Shown here: positions 24,212 through 61,827 of the stretch, piece after piece
Layout of the letters: the number at the start of each line of letters is the position of its first letter
Numbering within the stretch: position 1 is the stretch's first letter
Assembly (NCBI RefSeq): GCF_026619415.1
Contig: NZ_JAOVZR010000001.1
Coordinates: forward strand, 4,510,501 to 4,574,500
Origin: Hoeflea algicola
GTDB lineage: Bacteria > Pseudomonadota > Alphaproteobacteria > Rhizobiales > Rhizobiaceae
DNA length: 64,000 nucleotides
Direction of reading: 5' to 3'
Made by a program: the position numbers and the translations under genes
The notes under the pieces: generated by a model
The model's input: the letters and a program-made list of their open reading frames with translations, nothing else
Databases searched by the model: none
What the model was told of the DNA's origin: nothing

Positions 24212-25063
24212 CTAACCTTTCGTGGCGCCAAGTGTCAGGCCGGCAATGAAATGCTTCTGCATCAGGAAGAACATCAGCACCGGCGGCATGGCGGCGATGA
24301 TTGATCCGGCAGACACCAGTTGCCATTGCGCGATCCATTGCCCGTTGAGCGAATAGAGCCCGGCGGTGACCGGTTGGGTCTCGGCGCTGGTGGTCAGTAC
24401 CGTAGCCCAGAAATAGTCGTTCCAGATGAAGGTGAAGATCAGCACCGACAGCGCCGCGATTGCCGGTCGCATCAGCGGCACCACGATGTACCAGAAGATG
24501 CGAAACTCGGAGACGCCTTCAACGCGCGCGGATTCGATCAGTTCAAACGGCAGCCCCTTGATGAAGTTGCGCATGAACAGAGTGCAGAACCCCGACTGGA
24601 AGGCGATGTGAAACAGCGCCAGGCCGGTGATCGTGTTGTAGAGCCCGGTCGAGACGGTAAGATCGCGCACCGGCACCATCAGGATCTGGAATGGCACAAA
24701 GTTGCCGGCCACGAACAGGAAGAAAAGCACCAGGTTCATGCGAAACCGGTAAACGGCAAGCGCAAAGCCGGACAGGCAGGAAATCGCCACCGCTCCGATG
24801 ACCGTTGGAATGGTCACCTTGAACGAGTTCAGGATGTAGCTGCCGATCGGCGAATTGTTGAACACGTCGGCATAGTTCGAGAAGGCGAGATAGCTCGGCA
24901 ATCCGAAATAGTTGCCAGCGGCCAGATCGCTCGACGGCTTGAGCGAAGTCATGGCGACGCCAAGCAACGGCAGCAGCCACAGGATCAGGGCAACGGGCAG
25001 CGCCAGCTTGTAGAGGAACTGGATCGACGGAGAGGTCTTTTCGATGGCTATGGGAAACATCAC
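24212..25063 (-). CDS. Carbohydrate ABC transporter permease, MalG type
   Basis: A 283-residue inner-membrane permease with six predicted membrane segments. The EAA cytoplasmic loop ELIESARVEGVSEFRIFWYIVVPLMRPAIA near residue 185 docks the ATPase, and LVSAGSIIAAMPPVLMFFLMQKHFIAGLTLGATKG is a MalG-like C-terminus. It pairs with the upstream permease, overlapping it by four bases, and with the binding protein at 26101-27342. The likely cargo is an alpha- or beta-galactoside, judged from the co-operonic hydrolases. Confidence 0.92.
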   Translation of the reverse strand: MMFPIAIEKTSPSIQFLYKLALPVALILWLLPLLGVAMTSLKPSSDLAAGNYFGLPSYLAFSNYADVFNNSPIGSYILNSFKVTIPTVIGAVAISCLSGFALAVYRFRMNLVLFFLFVAGNFVPFQILMVPVRDLTVSTGLYNTITGLALFHIAFQSGFCTLFMRNFIKGLPFELIESARVEGVSEFRIFWYIVVPLMRPAIAALSVLIFTFIWNDYFWATVLTTSAETQPVTAGLYSLNGQWIAQWQLVSAGSIIAAMPPVLMFFLMQKHFIAGLTLGATKG

Positions 25064-25992
25064 ACGCCCCTTTCGTCGCGGATCATCTTCCAGATGAAGC
25101 CGGAGATGAAAATCATCATGATGGCGAACAGGATGACGGCAATCGCGGCGCCATAGCCCATGCGGTAGCCATATTCCGAGAGCGCCTGTTCATACATGTA
25201 GAACGACAGCACGCGGGAGGAACCGTAGGGGCCGCCATCGGTCATGATCGACACCAGGTCGAACGAGCGAAGCGCTCCGATCACGGTAACCACCACGGCG
25301 ATGAAGGTGGCGGGCCTGAGCTGCGGCAGGATGACATGCCAGAGCATCTTCCAGCCCTTGGCGCCATCGAGCCGTGCCGCTTCCACCTGGTCTGGCGCCA
25401 CATTGTTGAGCCCGGTCAGATACAGGATCATGCAATAGGCGATCTGCGGCCAAAGGCCGGCGACGATGATGCCGTAGGTCACGTAACGGTCGTCCGCCAA
25501 TACGGCGACACCGGTGCCGGTGATCCATTCGATCAGATTGTAGAACAGCCCGAAATTGGGGGCGTAGAACCAGGAAAAGATCAGGCCGACGACGACCTGG
25601 CTGATGACGAAGGGAAAGAAGAAAAGCGATTTGTAAATCCGGATCCCGGTGACCGTCTGGTTCAGGAACAGCGCGATGAACAGACCGGCGGGAACCGCCA
25701 GCATGTAAAGCGCCAGCCAGATGATGTTGTTCTTGAGCGAGGTGTAGAAGGCCTCGTCATCGGCCAGCTCGATGTAATTTTGCAGGCCCAGCCAGGTTTT
25801 GGTGCCGAGGCCGTCCCAGTCGTAAAAGCTCAGCCACATCGAGGCAATGATCGGGTAAATGACATAAAGCGCGAACATCGCAATGCCGGGGGCGAGAAAG
25901 ATCCATGGCGCCAGCGCTCGCTGGTTTTTCTTCCAGACACCGACCTTGCGTTTGTTGGTGCCGGCGATTGCCGTTGTTGCTGACCCCGTCAT
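25060..25992 (-). CDS. Carbohydrate ABC transporter permease, MalF type
   Basis: A 310-residue permease with six membrane segments. LAPWIFLAPGIAMFALYVIYPIIASMWLSFYDWDGLG is the usual N-terminal segment, and the EAA loop VAPDQVEAARLDGAKGWKMLWHVILPQLRPATF is near residue 205. It is the MalF-like half of the galactoside importer. A 108-base gap separates it from the binding-protein gene. The ATPase subunit is encoded beyond the divergent regulator at 28588-29673. Confidence 0.92.
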   Translation of the reverse strand: MTGSATTAIAGTNKRKVGVWKKNQRALAPWIFLAPGIAMFALYVIYPIIASMWLSFYDWDGLGTKTWLGLQNYIELADDEAFYTSLKNNIIWLALYMLAVPAGLFIALFLNQTVTGIRIYKSLFFFPFVISQVVVGLIFSWFYAPNFGLFYNLIEWITGTGVAVLADDRYVTYGIIVAGLWPQIAYCMILYLTGLNNVAPDQVEAARLDGAKGWKMLWHVILPQLRPATFIAVVVTVIGALRSFDLVSIMTDGGPYGSSRVLSFYMYEQALSEYGYRMGYGAAIAVILFAIMMIFISGFIWKMIRDERGV

Positions 25993-26100: not shown

Positions 26101-27342
26101 TTATTTGTAAATACGTCCACGCGCCTTTTCGAGACGTTCGAGGATCTTGTCGACATTCTCTGGCTTGACCATGAATTCCTGGAAGCCTTCCATGCCGATT
26201 TTTGCCATTTCCGCTGGTGCGTCGCGGTCGAAGAACTGGGCGATGCCGCCGTCAGCCGTCGAAAGCATCTCGAACCCGGCCTGCAGGAACGGATCGTCGC
26301 CGACCTTCGCCTGGTTGTTGATCGGCAACTGGCCGAGAGCCTCGTTGACCTTGGTCTGGACGTCTGCCTGAGCAAGATATGCGAGGAACTTCTTGGCGTC
26401 GGGAACATTCTTGGCACCGGCCGTGATGTGGACGGTGTCGGTCGGTGCTTCTTCGCCGCGCGGAATACCCGGGGTGATTTCCGGGAACGTCATGAAGCCG
26501 AGCGTATCGTTGGTCATGCCGCCGTCCTTGAACACGGCCACGGCAAAGTTGCCCATGACATAGTTGGCGGCCTTGCCCTGAACCAGCAGCGTCGCAGCGT
26601 CCTGCCATTCAAGTGCTGCGTGGTTGGCGGTCAGGTAACCGGGCTCGACCAGCTTGGCCCATTCGGCAAAAGTGTTCTTTACGCGGTCGTCGGTCCAGGC
26701 CACCTTGCCGGCGGTGAGTTCCATGTGGAAATCATAGCCGTTGGTACGCAGGTTCATGTAATCGAAGATGCCGGCTCCGGGCCACAGCGCCTTGGTGCCG
26801 GTGGTCAGGCAATCAATGCCGGCTTCCTTGAACTTGGCGCAATTGTCGATGAACTGGGCCCAGGTAGTGGGAACCTCGACGCCGACCTGCTTGTAGACGT
26901 TTTTGTTGTAGTAAATGCCCCACTGATAATAGGTGTAGGGGATGCCCCACTGCTTGCCGTCGATGGTCATCGAGCCCTTGGCCGAGGCCAGTGTCTCGCC
27001 CAGATTATTGTCTGCCCAGACGTCGGAAACATCCTGAAACTGACCGGAGTTGACGAAGGGCGCCATGCGGTTGCCGGCATACCAGTTGGCCAGATCCGGC
27101 GAATCCGCGGTCAGGAAGTTGCGGATCGATGTCTTGTAGCCCTCATGGTCGAAGTTCTGCAGAACAACGTCGATGTCGGGGTTGGCGGCCTCGAAATCCG
27201 CGATCACGGCCTCGAAGGCCGCGAGAGGCGCCGGGTCAAAGTCGGCGTAATATTTCAGAGTGCGCTGCTCGGCCATTGCCTGCGTTGCCACAAGGGCAAG
27301 GGCAGCGGAGCCAAGAAGCGTCGATGTGAGTGAAAGCTTCAT
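26101..27342 (-). CDS. Extracellular sugar-binding protein of ABC importer (SBP family 1)
   Basis: A 413-residue periplasmic binding protein. A signal peptide is clear (MKLSLTSTLLGSAALALVATQAMAEQRT, cleavage after AMA). Family 1 features include LKYYADFDPAPLAAFEAVIADFEAANPDIDV, WGIPYTYYQWGIYYNKNVYKQVGVEVPTTWAQF and the C-terminal AEMAKIGMEGFQEFMV. It is the first gene of the galactoside operon and the most strongly expressed by position; GGGAGG precedes its start. A palindrome 121 bases upstream may be the IclR operator. Confidence 0.93.
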   Translation of the reverse strand: MKLSLTSTLLGSAALALVATQAMAEQRTLKYYADFDPAPLAAFEAVIADFEAANPDIDVVLQNFDHEGYKTSIRNFLTADSPDLANWYAGNRMAPFVNSGQFQDVSDVWADNNLGETLASAKGSMTIDGKQWGIPYTYYQWGIYYNKNVYKQVGVEVPTTWAQFIDNCAKFKEAGIDCLTTGTKALWPGAGIFDYMNLRTNGYDFHMELTAGKVAWTDDRVKNTFAEWAKLVEPGYLTANHAALEWQDAATLLVQGKAANYVMGNFAVAVFKDGGMTNDTLGFMTFPEITPGIPRGEEAPTDTVHITAGAKNVPDAKKFLAYLAQADVQTKVNEALGQLPINNQAKVGDDPFLQAGFEMLSTADGGIAQFFDRDAPAEMAKIGMEGFQEFMVKPENVDKILERLEKARGRIYK

Positions 27343-37189: not shown

Positions 37190-38218
37190 ATGAAATCGTT
37201 TATCTATTTGATGGCTGGATCAGCCATCGCGCTGACGATGTCGACGGCAACTTTCGCTAAGGACATGGTGATCGGTGTTTCCTGGTCGAACTTCCAGGAA
37301 GAGCGCTGGAAGACCGACGAAGCAGCCATGAAGGCCGCCATTGAAGCCAATGGTGACACCTATATTTCGGCTGATGCGCAGGCTTCGGCCGCCAAGCAGC
37401 TTACCGATGTCGAGAGCCTCATCGCCCAGGGCGCGAACGCGCTGGTGATCTTGTCAGTCGACTCGGGCGCTGTTGGCGCCGCTGTCGACAAGGCCGCTGC
37501 CGAAGGCATCCCGGTACTTGGCTACGACCGCCTGATTGAAGATGAGCGCGCATTCTACCTGACCTTTGACAACAAGGGCGTCGGCCGCATCATTGCCGAG
37601 ACCGTCAAGGCCGCGCAGCCGGAAGGCAACTATGCCATCATCAAGGGTGACAAGGGCGATCCGAACGCGCTGTTCCTGCTTGAAGGCATGATGGAAGTCA
37701 TCGGCGCGGATGTCGAAGCTGGCAAGATCAAGATCGTCGGCGAAGCATTCACCGATGGCTGGAAGCCGGACAACGCGCAGAAGAACATGGAGCAGATCCT
37801 GACCGCTGCTGATAACAAGGTTGACGCGGTTCTGTCGGAAAATGACGGCATGGCTGGCGGTGCGATTGCAGCGCTTGCAGCCCAGGGCCTGAACATCCCG
37901 GTCGGTGGCCAGGATGGTGACCATGCAGCGCTCAACCGTGTTGCCCGTGGCACCCAGACTGTTTCGGTCTGGAAAGATGCACGGGCACTTGGCAAGGCTG
38001 CCGGCGATATCGCCGCCATGCTTGCTGATGGTAAGGCGATGACCGACATCCCTGGTGCCGTTAAGTGGTCCGGTGGCGCCAAGGGCGTTGAGATGAATGC
38101 GATCTTCCTGGCACCGACGCCGATCACCAAGGACAACATCGGGGTTGTCATCGAGGCGGGTCACATTGCCAAGGACAAGGTCTGCGAAGGCGCCATGGAC
38201 GGCGTTAACGGCTGCTGA
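37190..38218 (+). CDS. xylF: D-xylose ABC transporter substrate-binding protein
   Basis: A 342-residue periplasmic binding protein of the type 1 (ribose/xylose) fold. The signal peptide is MKSFIYLMAGSAIALTMSTATFAKDM. Family motifs are VIGVSWSNFQEERWKTDEAAMKAAI, SADAQASAAKQLTDVESLIAQGANALVILSVDS, GYDRLIEDERAFYLTFDNKGVG and VDAVLSENDGMAGGAIAAL, all typical of XylF. GGGAGG precedes the ATG at good spacing. It is the first gene of xylFHG and is followed by an intercistronic hairpin. No xylA or xylB is in the window. Confidence 0.93.
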   Translation: MKSFIYLMAGSAIALTMSTATFAKDMVIGVSWSNFQEERWKTDEAAMKAAIEANGDTYISADAQASAAKQLTDVESLIAQGANALVILSVDSGAVGAAVDKAAAEGIPVLGYDRLIEDERAFYLTFDNKGVGRIIAETVKAAQPEGNYAIIKGDKGDPNALFLLEGMMEVIGADVEAGKIKIVGEAFTDGWKPDNAQKNMEQILTAADNKVDAVLSENDGMAGGAIAALAAQGLNIPVGGQDGDHAALNRVARGTQTVSVWKDARALGKAAGDIAAMLADGKAMTDIPGAVKWSGGAKGVEMNAIFLAPTPITKDNIGVVIEAGHIAKDKVCEGAMDGVNGC

Positions 38219-39707: not shown

Positions 39708-40499
39708 ATGTCAGATACGATGAACAAGACACCCTTGGTCGAACTTCGCGACATTTCCATCGCCTTTGGTGGCATCAAGGCGGTCGACCATGCGTCGGTT
39801 GATCTGTTCCCGGGTGAAGTTGTGGCGCTGCTGGGCCACAATGGCGCGGGAAAGTCGACGCTGATCAAGATCCTCTCGGGCGCCTACAAGCGTGATGCCG
39901 GCAAGATCTTCATCAATGGCGAGGAAGTGCATATCGAGAACCCGCGCGACGCCAAGAAATTTGGCATCGAAACCATCTACCAGACGCTGGCTGTCGCCGA
40001 TAACGTCGATGCGGCGGCCAACCTCTATCTCGGCCGCGAGCTGCAGACTGCCTGGGGCACGCTCGATGACATTGCGATGGAAGCCGAGGCACGCAAGGTG
40101 ATGGGCCGGTTGAACCCGAATTTCCAGCGCTTCAAGGAGCCGGTCAGCAAGCTCTCCGGTGGCCAGCGCCAGTCGGTGGCGATTGCCCGCGCCATTCTCT
40201 TCAACGCCCGCATCCTGATCATGGATGAGCCGACGGCGGCGCTAGGCCCGCAGGAAACCGAGCAGGTGGGTGACCTGATCAAGCAATTGAAAAAGGAAGG
40301 CATCGGCATCTTCCTGATCAGCCACGACATCCACGATGTGTTCGACCTCGCCGACCGTGTCAGCGTCATGAAGAACGGGCAGGTGGTCGGCCACGCCAGG
40401 ACTTCCGATGTCACCAAGGATGAGGTTCTTGGGATGATCATCATGGGCAAATGCCCGCCCGGCGCCATTCCCGGACCCGGCGCCCTGCAGACAGCCTGA
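39708..40499 (+). CDS. xylG: Sugar ABC transporter ATP-binding protein, single-domain XylG/FrcA type
   Basis: A 263-residue ATPase. Walker A is GHNGAGKST (about 43-51), the signature is [14 protein letters not shown], Walker B is [15 protein letters not shown], and the H-loop is [15 protein letters not shown]. The classical XylG has two fused ATPase domains (about 500 residues); this one has a single domain, like rhizobial FrcA, so it would act as a homodimer. It energises XylH. A strong terminator follows. Confidence 0.9.
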
Positions 40500-40508
40500 A
40501 CCAATCGC

Positions 40509-40534
40509 AACCGGGGCCCTGAGCCCCGGTTTTG
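40509..40534 (+). terminator. Rho-independent terminator of xylFHG
   Basis: AACCGGGGC (40509-40517) and GCCCCGGTT (40523-40531) form a 9-bp stem with a 5-base loop, followed by TTTG. It starts 10 bases after the xylG stop. Confidence 0.85.
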
Positions 40535-40715
40535 CGTTGATGGCTATTCATGCTCGATTTGGTTAGTTGACGCTGTCGGGCGATCCATCATTGTGTGTTC
40601 GCAGCCAGGGTTTGGCTATCGCGACGCGTGTTGGCGATCACGGATGTTTTACCGGAAGATCAAAATATTTTCGGCACTTCTATTGCATCGCAGCATTTGA
40701 TGTCCCATATCCCAA

Positions 40716-40866
40716 TCAACGCCGCGTCGAACACCTCCTCCTCCCAGTTCGGCGGGGCATCAGTCGGGACACATTGAGCCGGGATCCTCCTCCCAAGCAC
40801 CGGTTCGACGTCCCGACATACTACAAGCGCCTGTCGGGTCTGACCCGGCAGGCGTTTTGTTTTTTC
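40716..40866 (+). ncRNA. CCUCCUCCC-motif small RNA (cuckoo / alpha-r14-like)
   Basis: Three hairpins occur in series with no protein frame. Hairpin 1 pairs CGAAC (40728-40732) with GTTCG (40747-40751) and displays CCTCCTCCTCCC (40734-40745) in its loop. Hairpin 2 has an outer 8-bp stem (40763-40770 with 40810-40817, GTCGGGAC/GTCCCGAC) and an inner 7-bp stem (40776-40782 with 40800-40806) that displays CCTCCTCCC (40786-40794). Hairpin 3 is a strong terminator (40828-40865). This architecture matches alphaproteobacterial trans-acting small RNAs with conserved anti-Shine-Dalgarno CCUCCUCCC loops (CcsR/cuckoo; alpha-r14 in Sinorhizobium). A CCCATAT element at 40704-40710 could be the -10 of an RpoH-type promoter; the 5' end is an estimate. 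Confidence 0.75.
40828..40865 (+). terminator. Rho-independent terminator of the small RNA
   Basis: CGCCTG (40828-40833) pairs with CAGGCG (40849-40854), and the stem continues to about 12 pairs around a three-base loop. It is followed by TTTTGTTTTTT. No coding sequence ends near it on the plus strand, and the xyl operon has its own terminator 300 bases upstream, which supports an independent RNA. Confidence 0.88.
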
Positions 40867-40900: not shown

Positions 40901-41785
40901 CTACAAGAAGAAATCCGCCTTGTGTTCATGGACGATAGCGGAGATGTGATCGGCCACGGTGCGCACCCGCGCCAGGTCTCGCGCCGATTCATGATAGACC
41001 ATGTAATAGGACCGCTCGATCCGGTGGTCGGGCAGCAGCCGGACCAGATCCGGGTCGGCCACGGCAATATAATCGTGCAGCACGGCGATGCCTGCGCCCG
41101 AACGCACCGCTTCGGTTTGTCCGGTCGCACTGGAAATTTCCAGTTGTGCCGTCCAGTTGCGCAGGATGTCGCGGGTGAAATGCAATGACGGCGAAAAGAT
41201 CAGGTCTTCGACATAGCTGATCAGCCGGTGATCTTTGAGGTCTTCCGTCCGGGTTGGCGTTCCGTGAGCTTGCAGGTAACCCCGCGAGGCATAGAGCGCC
41301 AGTGAATAATCCACCAGTTTGCGCGCCACCAGTCGGCCACCGGATGGCCGCTCGACGGTGATAGCGATATCGGCCTCGCGTTGCGGCAGCGAGAAGCTGC
41401 GCGGTACCGGCACCAGTTGCAGCCGCAAATCCGGATGGCGTGCGATCAGGCTGCCCAGTCTTGGCGCCAGGAACGACACACCGAAACCGTCAGGCGCACC
41501 AATCCGCACGGTGCCCGAAATGGCGCTGTCGGTGCGTCCCAGGTTGGCTTGGGCGGCGAGCATCTCGGCTTCCATCCGTTCGGCATGGACCAGGAAGGCT
41601 TCACCTTCACCCGTGAGCCCGCAGCCATTGGTGCGGCGCACGATGAGCTGCGCGTCAAGCGCGCTCTCCAGCGAAGTCAGCCGTCGCGCCGCGGTGGCAT
41701 GGTTGATCCCCAGCCGCCGAGCCGCTCCGAGGATTTGTCCGGAGCGTGCCACGGCGAGGAAAACCCGGATGTCATCCCAGTTCAT
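40901..41785 (-). CDS. LysR family transcriptional regulator
   Basis: A 294-residue LysR protein. The helix-turn-helix lies at about 3-58 (WDDIRVFLAVARSGQILGAARRLGINHATAARRLTSLESALDAQLIVRR) and the effector domain follows (SGTVRIGAPDGFGVSFLAPRLGSLIARHPDLRLQLVP, RSGAGIAVLHDYIA). The HATAARRLTSLE recognition helix is typical of a LysR subgroup common in rhizobia. It starts six bases after the purU stop, so it is probably co-transcribed with purU. Target unknown. Confidence 0.88.
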   Translation of the reverse strand: MNWDDIRVFLAVARSGQILGAARRLGINHATAARRLTSLESALDAQLIVRRTNGCGLTGEGEAFLVHAERMEAEMLAAQANLGRTDSAISGTVRIGAPDGFGVSFLAPRLGSLIARHPDLRLQLVPVPRSFSLPQREADIAITVERPSGGRLVARKLVDYSLALYASRGYLQAHGTPTRTEDLKDHRLISYVEDLIFSPSLHFTRDILRNWTAQLEISSATGQTEAVRSGAGIAVLHDYIAVADPDLVRLLPDHRIERSYYMVYHESARDLARVRTVADHISAIVHEHKADFFL

Positions 41786-46543: not shown

Positions 46544-46710
46544 CTGTTATCCGGCACCATTACCCGCGGGTTATGGCCTCGATCGGGTGAAACCCGGCAG
46601 CGATAACTGGCTTCTATTTATGTGCGCTGCATCATCACCGGTGGACATGGCTCGGCTGGCAATGCATGCTGTTTTGCGCCGCAAGGCCGCCCGATCAACG
46701 GATACAGCTC

Positions 46711-61020: not shown

Positions 61021-61827
61021 ATGAGCAGTCCACAATCTGGCGCCCAAACCGCCGCCGCAACGTCTCCGCCCGCTGTCGCCGTTACCAACCTGTGCAAGCA
61101 GTTTGGTGAGCTCGAAGTGCTCAAGGGCGTGTCGCTGTCGGCCAACACCGGCGACGTGGTGGCCATCATCGGTGGATCGGGTTCCGGCAAGTCGACCATG
61201 CTGCGCTGCATCAACATGTTGGAACTGCCGACCAAAGGCACGATCAGCATCCAGGGTGAGATCATCAAGATGAAGCCGGATGGGCGCGGCGGCCAGCAGC
61301 CGGCCAATTCTGCGCAACTGCGCCGGATCCGAACCCGGTTGGCGATGGTATTCCAGAGCTTTAATTTGTGGCAGCACATGACCGTGCTTGGCAATGTCAT
61401 CGAGGTTCCGGTGCATGTGATGGGTGTGCCGCGCGACGAAGCGATTGCGCGCGCCGAAAAACTGCTTGAGCGTGTCGGCCTGTCCGACAAGCGCGATGTC
61501 TATCCGGCGTTTTTGTCCGGTGGCCAGCAGCAGCGCGCGGCAATTGCCCGGGCGCTGGCGGTCGAACCGGAGGTGATGCTGTTTGACGAGCCGACATCTG
61601 CACTCGACCCTGAGCTGGTGGGCGAAGTGCTGGCCGTGATTGCCGATCTGGCCCGAGAGGGCCGCACCATGCTGCTTGTTACCCACGAGATGAATTTTGC
61701 CCGTGAAGTGGCAAACCATGTCGTGTTTCTGGCTGACGGTGTGATCGAGGAGGAAGGTCCGCCCGAAACTGTCTACAGCGCGCCCAAATCGGAGCGTCTG
61801 CAAAAATTCCTTGCGACTGTCCAATAG
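61021..61827 (+). CDS. Polar amino-acid ABC transporter ATP-binding protein, HisP type
   Basis: A 268-residue ATPase. Walker A is GGSGSGKST (about residues 57-65), the Q-loop is VFQSFNLWQHMTVLGNV, the signature is LSGGQQQRAAIARA, Walker B is VMLFDEPTSALDPE, and the H-loop is LVTHEMNFAREVANHV. The LELPTKGTISIQGE and C-terminal GVIEEEGPPETVYSAPKSERLQKFL are typical of the HisP/OccP/ArtP group. The ATG follows GAGG. It is the first gene of a four-gene importer operon. Likely cargo is arginine or a related basic amino acid, judged from the adjacent aru genes. Confidence 0.93.
   Translation: MSSPQSGAQTAAATSPPAVAVTNLCKQFGELEVLKGVSLSANTGDVVAIIGGSGSGKSTMLRCINMLELPTKGTISIQGEIIKMKPDGRGGQQPANSAQLRRIRTRLAMVFQSFNLWQHMTVLGNVIEVPVHVMGVPRDEAIARAEKLLERVGLSDKRDVYPAFLSGGQQQRAAIARALAVEPEVMLFDEPTSALDPELVGEVLAVIADLAREGRTMLLVTHEMNFAREVANHVVFLADGVIEEEGPPETVYSAPKSERLQKFLATVQ

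Follow-up and report, generated by a model that had tools for sequence, protein, structure and literature searches.

Between an ABC transporter gene and a lysR gene, the genome of Hoeflea algicola carries a short stretch that an earlier note, made from the sequence alone, had read as an unannotated small RNA. Is it such an RNA, and if so, what would control it and what would it act on? We analysed it within a window of 64,000 nucleotides (the whole stretch of DNA under analysis). The best explanation, which we regard as fairly probable, is an anti-Shine-Dalgarno small RNA that is repressed by PhaR, released on polymer accumulation and lowers the expression of uptake genes. PhaR is a sensor of the storage polymer polyhydroxybutyrate. 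The analysis computed the structure and conservation of the RNA, an operator match and its conservation, and a family-wide association between the site and phaR.

Three hairpins had been described at the locus, two with CCUCCUCCC in open loops and the third a terminator, and both the sequence and the coordinates bear this out. The RNA and its parts are as follows:

40716..40866, + strand: predicted small RNA (fold z −5.72, covariation in 17 homologues, 165.5 bits here with its own covariance model, R1)
40721..40758, + strand: predicted hairpin 1, with both-side changes in 5 of 10 consensus pairs
40737..40745, + strand: CCTCCTCCC anti-Shine-Dalgarno motif in loop 1 (sequence and predicted fold)
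40763..40817, + strand: hairpin 2, with inner stem-loop CCGGGATCCTCCTCCCAAGCACCGG invariant in 17 of 17 homologues and both-side changes in 4 of 7 outer pairs
40786..40794, + strand: CCTCCTCCC anti-Shine-Dalgarno motif in loop 2 (sequence and predicted fold)
40823..40865, + strand: terminator hairpin (40823–40860) with T-rich tail, with both-side changes in 4 of 15 pairs

The predicted fold of 40716–40866 has an energy of −77.1 kcal/mol; shuffled sequences average −52.9 (sd 4.2), and none of 200 was equally low. The T-rich tail has 11 bases, TTTTGTTTTTT, at 40855–40865; by sequence and predicted fold, the terminator loop does not carry CCTCCTCCC. An ABC transporter ATPase gene (39708–40499) ends about 217 nt upstream of the RNA, and a LysR gene (40901–41785, − strand) points towards it from the other side. 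The 9-mer CCTCCTCCC alone is not enriched genome-wide, with 25 copies against 25 of the reversed pattern. We rejected an RNA on the opposite strand, where the covariance model of the small RNA gives 25.6 bits versus 165.5 on the + strand, and also regulation by the adjacent LysR gene via a common promoter, as that gene runs towards the RNA.

Of 41 genomes searched at the DNA level, 17 of the 18 from Hoeflea have the RNA, its own genome counted, and none of the 23 non-Hoeflea genomes does; the single Hoeflea genome with no match is 75% complete. The exact 25-nt pattern of hairpin 2 occurred in 13 stretches of GTDB species genomes, all Hoeflea, in a set from which near relatives of the window were possibly omitted. 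The compensatory changes that the earlier note had proposed looking for are present: pairing is kept in 98.3% of 629 pair cells across the 17 Hoeflea homologues, and the stems covary. Both sides changed in 13 of 37 pairs (4.6 in shuffles) and the covariation score was 0.238 (0.140 in shuffles), each as high in 0 of 500 shuffles. When the 3′ partners were slid by one to three columns, 24–40% still paired, a comparison biased in favour of the structure because it was derived from the same 17 sequences. Within hairpin 2, the inner 25 nt do not vary among the 17 homologues and the inner stem shows no covariation, 4 of its 5 pairs never varying. Gene order is kept as well: of 16 loci from congeners, each about 3 kb long, 15 contain the ATPase gene and 14 LysR, and the missing neighbours (two LysR, one ATPase) turned up in longer, 8-kb loci of those contigs, the ATPase as an edge fragment of 82 residues. 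ATPase identity is about 69% in some congeners and 91–97% in others, so the upstream operon is unequally conserved. A protein-coding reading can be dismissed, since the open frames through the middle hairpin differ in start, frame and length among the 17 homologues. One frame is stop-free within the transcript in 15 of the 17, and the phase from 5′ end to terminator is not kept; with no reading frame shared by all the homologues, the earlier statement that no protein gene accounts for the stretch holds.

The likeness to CcsR/cuckoo and alpha-r14 RNAs that had been proposed for the loops and layout survives in part, as that of a divergent ar14 relative; the layout differs, and the Rfam cut-off is missed. 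In a covariance search, Rfam's ar14 (RF02344) was the best match, with 37.8 bits and E 1.3e-5, below the gathering score of 58.8; at this relaxed threshold it covers the whole of 40716–40866, and the window has no Rfam match at Rfam's own cut-offs. Scores for ar14 were 26.9–43.1 in 14 congeners with an orthologue, every one below 58.8. The region's further Rfam matches (ctRNA_pGA1, CC3664, Scr3202, eiav_FSE) were rejected, with E-values of 0.11 to 8.6. The Hoeflea RNA has three hairpins of which the last is the terminator, as ar14 does, and it has CCUCCUCCC in two of three loops, where ar14/NfeR1 RNAs are reported to carry it in the loops of all three hairpins (PMC10746234, PMC7143759). The covariance model of the small RNA scored 165.5–183.6 bits in three Hoeflea genomes and at most 54.0 in the other 196 of 199 genomes, searched with stricter filters as there were more than 40; the printed examples of its weaker matches outside Hoeflea have the ar14 layout, and it finds nine ar14 loci at 13.9–50.0 bits. 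Two further loci of the same genome exceed the ar14 cut-off (102.7 and 98.0 bits), one, with three CCTCCTCCC copies, lying directly 3′ of a DUF1127 gene and the other having four copies. The Hoeflea RNA is a divergent ar14 relative, a non-member by the Rfam rule, and the third RNA of this kind in its genome, restricted to the genus. The remark that it stands alone without DUF1127 is correct at this locus, where the upstream gene is the ABC ATPase and not a co-transcribed DUF1127 gene as at CcsR loci; it does not extend to the rest of the genome, in which an ar14 locus directly follows a DUF1127 gene (PF06568, E 2.4e-13), as in Rhodobacter. An ar14 RNA of the same genome is flanked by two DUF1127 genes (locus L026: 1352–1492 and 1889–2032), with PhaR-type promoter sites of 22.2 and 21.9.

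The alignment of the 17 homologues shows conserved blocks before the start, TTTA..GAT..AA, TTGCAATGCAGCAT and CCATAT, and the start site probably lies near 40716. The promoter region contains:

40647..40665, no strand: upstream block TTTTACCGGAAGATCAAAA; many homologues have TTTATCAAAAGATAAA, an inverted repeat of which the window copy is imperfect
40678..40698, no strand: predicted PhaR operator with core TGCATCGCA at 40684–40692 (matrix match, 17 of 17 homologues)
40682..40687, + strand: −35-like element ATTGCA, 17 bp before the −10-like element by eye and overlapped by the predicted operator
40705..40710, + strand: −10-like element CCATAT, with CATAT invariant in 17 of 17 homologues

An inverted repeat resembling TTTATC-N4-GATAAA is kept 5′ of the PhaR-type site, at 40647–40665 and in homologues. 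Our PhaR matrix was built from 16 published S. meliloti sites listed as efficiently bound, a genus other than that of the host. On this matrix, 40678–40698 scores 18.4 (training sites 16.8–28.4), the highest value among 63,980 window positions, and each of the 17 homologues has its best PhaR-type site at this offset, scoring 13.9–22.4; the promoter thus holds a predicted operator that matches the published motif. The middle conserved block, TTGCAATGCAGCAT, fits both the Bradyrhizobium PhaR consensus TGCRNYGCASMA (PMC6201568) and the S. meliloti PhaR core YGCRNYGCR (PMC12542648); by eye, one position in the arms of the Hoeflea operator departs from the S. meliloti consensus. The host genome has phaR and four phasin matches. 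PhaR-type promoter scores in this genome were 23.5, 26.2 and 25.0 for phasins (the last common to two divergent genes), 16.6 for phaR itself, 22.2 and 21.5 for the other two ar14-type loci, and 4.5 and 15.8 for two AbcR copies. Genome-wide, TTGCANYGCASMA has 18 copies against 3 of the reversed pattern; no phasin was found among the 20 Pfam-searched ORFs near TTGCANYGCASMA sites, and a phasin gene near C1:4185442 lay outside the chosen ORFs. The second- and third-best PhaR-type sites of the window are at 46617–46637 (17.9) and 61196–61216 (16.8).

The main rival to the PhaR reading, which we consider unlikely, accepts the same RNA but takes the TTGCANNGCAGCAT block as a site, or second contact, of the LysR-type regulator LsrB/VtlR, as for NfeR1, with redox or nitrogen stress rather than storage as the input. 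LsrB activates NfeR1 via TGCA-N6-GCAT at about −72 to −57 (PMC10746234). The block here reads TGCA-N5-GCAT, near that motif but by eye one base shorter, and it sits at the core promoter instead of at −72 to −57. As the LsrB-type dyad we used GCAT-N7-ATG, a pattern that follows the AbcR promoters found here and the published GCAT-N3-TG-N3-T. None of the 17 promoters of the Hoeflea RNA has this dyad, which would be expected upstream of the core promoter in the LsrB regulon; TGCA-N6-GCAT was checked by eye only. The same core also occurs in phasin promoters, and an AbcR promoter with an LsrB-type dyad scores only 4.5 for the PhaR matrix (another AbcR copy, 15.8).

The two regulators were further compared across the bacterial family, in which ar14 matches (E up to 1e-6) were found in 191 of 199 genomes and phaR in 174 of 199. 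The PhaR-bearing set comprised 82 ar14 loci from 50 genera, Hoeflea excluded (30 + 16 from earlier ar14 matches and 36 fetched additionally), mostly high-scoring rather than a random draw, and the PhaR-less set comprised 39 ar14 loci from 8 genera, some of these lineages having small genomes. We counted sites within 450 bp upstream that scored at least 16 and whose core did not overlap an LsrB-type dyad; the cut-off of 16 was settled on once 39 loci had been inspected. In that first inspection, sites scoring at least 16 preceded 27 of the 39 ar14 loci and also lay in 21 of 78 neighbouring control stretches. Many of the Hoeflea control-stretch sites precede a second DUF1127 gene (seen in two loci), and we therefore replaced the neighbour control with shuffles and PhaR-less genomes. 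A PhaR-type site was present before 57 of 82 ar14 loci in PhaR-bearing genomes versus 0 of 39 in PhaR-less ones, leaving 25 of the 82 with none by the strict rule. By genus, the counts were 38 of 50 versus 0 of 8 (Fisher p 6.6e-5, the genera not being independent). With the overlap rule dropped, they were 59 of 82 versus 1 of 40 loci (one PhaR-less locus counted twice), where shuffling gives an expectation of 0.35 for either group. We excluded five loci from two genera whose phaR status was unclear. Three of the five have a site, two of these being one site before tandem copies, and all three belong to one genome with no detected phaR whose sister genome has the gene.

LsrB-type dyads, for their part, occur before 48 of 82 ar14 loci of PhaR-bearing genomes and 19 of 39 of PhaR-less ones (2.7 and 1.7 expected), often 20–21 bp 5′ of the PhaR-type core, which lends the LsrB reading some support. 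But PhaR-less genomes keep the dyad (19/39) without a PhaR-type site (0/39), so the PhaR-type site tracks phaR and the LsrB-type dyad does not. Where both were present, the core mostly (33 of 42 pairs) followed the dyad by 20–21 bp, a fixed arrangement of two sites that may reflect joint control or a second LsrB contact. On these data we lean slightly towards PhaR as a general regulator of cuckoo RNAs across the family, its operator kept with PhaR and gone where PhaR was lost. Storage level would then set the uptake-lowering RNAs, to which Hoeflea would have added one with a PhaR site and without an LsrB dyad.

For the Hoeflea RNA, we infer that it is transcribed and from where, that PhaR binds its promoter and represses rather than activates it, which genes are its targets, and an effect on uptake. 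PhaR control of a trans-acting “cuckoo” RNA with its own promoter and terminator could work as follows. With little storage polymer, PhaR would sit on the operator overlapping the −35 position and spacer and block transcription; as polyhydroxybutyrate accumulates, PhaR would move to the granules, the RNA would be made and uptake would be lowered. Through its two open CCUCCUCCC loops the RNA would bind purine-rich ribosome sites, mostly those of ABC uptake genes, and keep these genes from being translated. We propose repression from the overlap of the operator with the −35 position and spacer, an arrangement also reported for mmgR (PMC8401924); the sign could be reversed, because PhaR activates some genes. 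The loops of NfeR1 are reported to silence transport genes redundantly, at their ribosome sites (PMC7143759, PMC10746234). Among 53 window ORFs, the three strongest predicted duplexes were with ABC transporter genes (25060–25992, 37190–38218 and 26101–27342), one of which neighbours the RNA:

37190..38218, + strand: possible target, the periplasmic binding protein gene of a sugar-type ABC operon (PF13407), with CTTGGGAGGA before its ATG; second-best of 53 predicted duplexes

Here CTTGGGAGGA is predicted to pair over 10 nt with loop 2. All 8 Hoeflea genomes compared keep GGGAGG before this gene, and 4 keep the loop-2-specific TTGGGAGGA; in 2 of the 8 a scrambled control pairs better than either loop. 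The duplex predictions are thus weak and no more than suggestive. Perfect complements, GGGAGGAGG, occur in 25 places; in 5 of them a start 3–15 nt downstream opens more than 60 aa, two of the 5 being antisense in AbcR copies.

Two other readings concern how the RNA would be made. The CCCATAT at 40704–40710 had been taken as a hint of RpoH-type control, which would make this a heat- or oxidative-stress RNA like CcsR of Rhodobacter, whose RNAs have an RpoHI/RpoHII promoter (PMC10253847). That hint finds no support: the −35 position reads ATTGCA rather than CTTGAA, the PhaR core accounts for its conservation, and CCATAT also precedes the four AbcR-type copies of this genome. In S. meliloti, AbcR1 has a housekeeping-type promoter and AbcR2 an RpoH1-dependent one, CTTGAA-N16-CCTATAT (PMC8844928). 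We regard RpoH control as very improbable. We likewise give little credence to the RNA being cut from the 3′ end of a transcript of the upstream ABC operon. It does lie about 217 nt after the ATPase gene and adjoins that gene in nearly all congeners, but a conserved promoter-like stretch directly precedes it, and a GC-rich palindrome followed by TTTT at 40510–40533 looks by eye like the operon's own terminator.

Cuckoo RNAs are widespread, yet the literature that we found gives inputs for few of them: LsrB and NtrC for NfeR1 and RpoH for CcsR. In the literature searched, cuckoo RNAs are nowhere described as controlled by PhaR, and no paper combines PhaR and NfeR1; two papers name both Hoeflea and “small RNA”. 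The available text of the S. meliloti PhaR regulon paper (PMC12542648) makes no mention of NfeR1, sRNA or DUF1127; that of the NfeR1 paper has AniA once, within a reference only; and, by term search, a recent S. meliloti DUF1127 paper (PMC12218461) contains none of cuckoo, NfeR1, LsrB, PhaR and CcsR. If control by PhaR is real, its operator would give many cuckoo RNAs a common and directly testable input, carbon storage, and a second group would join MmgR, the sole published small RNA under PhaR control that we found. With a PhaR-type site and no LsrB-type dyad in its promoter, the Hoeflea RNA offers a clean test, and it suggests that nutrient uptake is tied to stored carbon.

Among known systems, ar14/NfeR1 (RF02344, the “cuckoo” group) resembles the Hoeflea RNA in its three hairpins, open CCUCCUCCC loops and terminator, and both kinds occur in the same genome. 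The Hoeflea RNA differs in having the motif in two loops rather than three, the second in the middle hairpin, in the invariant 25 nt of that hairpin, in a promoter that lacks the LsrB-type dyad, and in a covariance model of its own that separates it clearly. CcsR1–4 of Rhodobacter sphaeroides, found with the DUF1127 gene ccaF1, belong to the same broad anti-Shine-Dalgarno group (PMC10253847), but they are four RNAs processed from the DUF1127 gene transcript with an RpoH promoter, whereas the Hoeflea RNA is one RNA with its own predicted promoter and no adjacent DUF1127 gene. AbcR1/2 (ar15) are alike in a CTCCTCCC-type loop, in acting on ABC transporter genes and, in this genome, in CCATAT in the promoter; they differ in family (RF02345), in their four tandem copies elsewhere in the genome (C1:1974333–1975205, all over the cut-off) and in an LsrB-type promoter. 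Two of these four copies carry CCTCCTCCC, and TGCATCGCAGCA lies between copies. MmgR (ar8) of S. meliloti, 77 nt long and Hfq-dependent, is unrelated and belongs to a different family (PMC8401924). It shares with the Hoeflea RNA a PhaR/AniA operator, predicted in Hoeflea, in the core promoter, its published site CAATTGTGCACCGCAGCATTA having GCAGCATT in common with 40690–40697; PhaR binds the mmgR promoter efficiently (PMC12542648, Table 3), and AniA (PhaR) represses MmgR via a dyad between −35 and −10 (PMC8401924).
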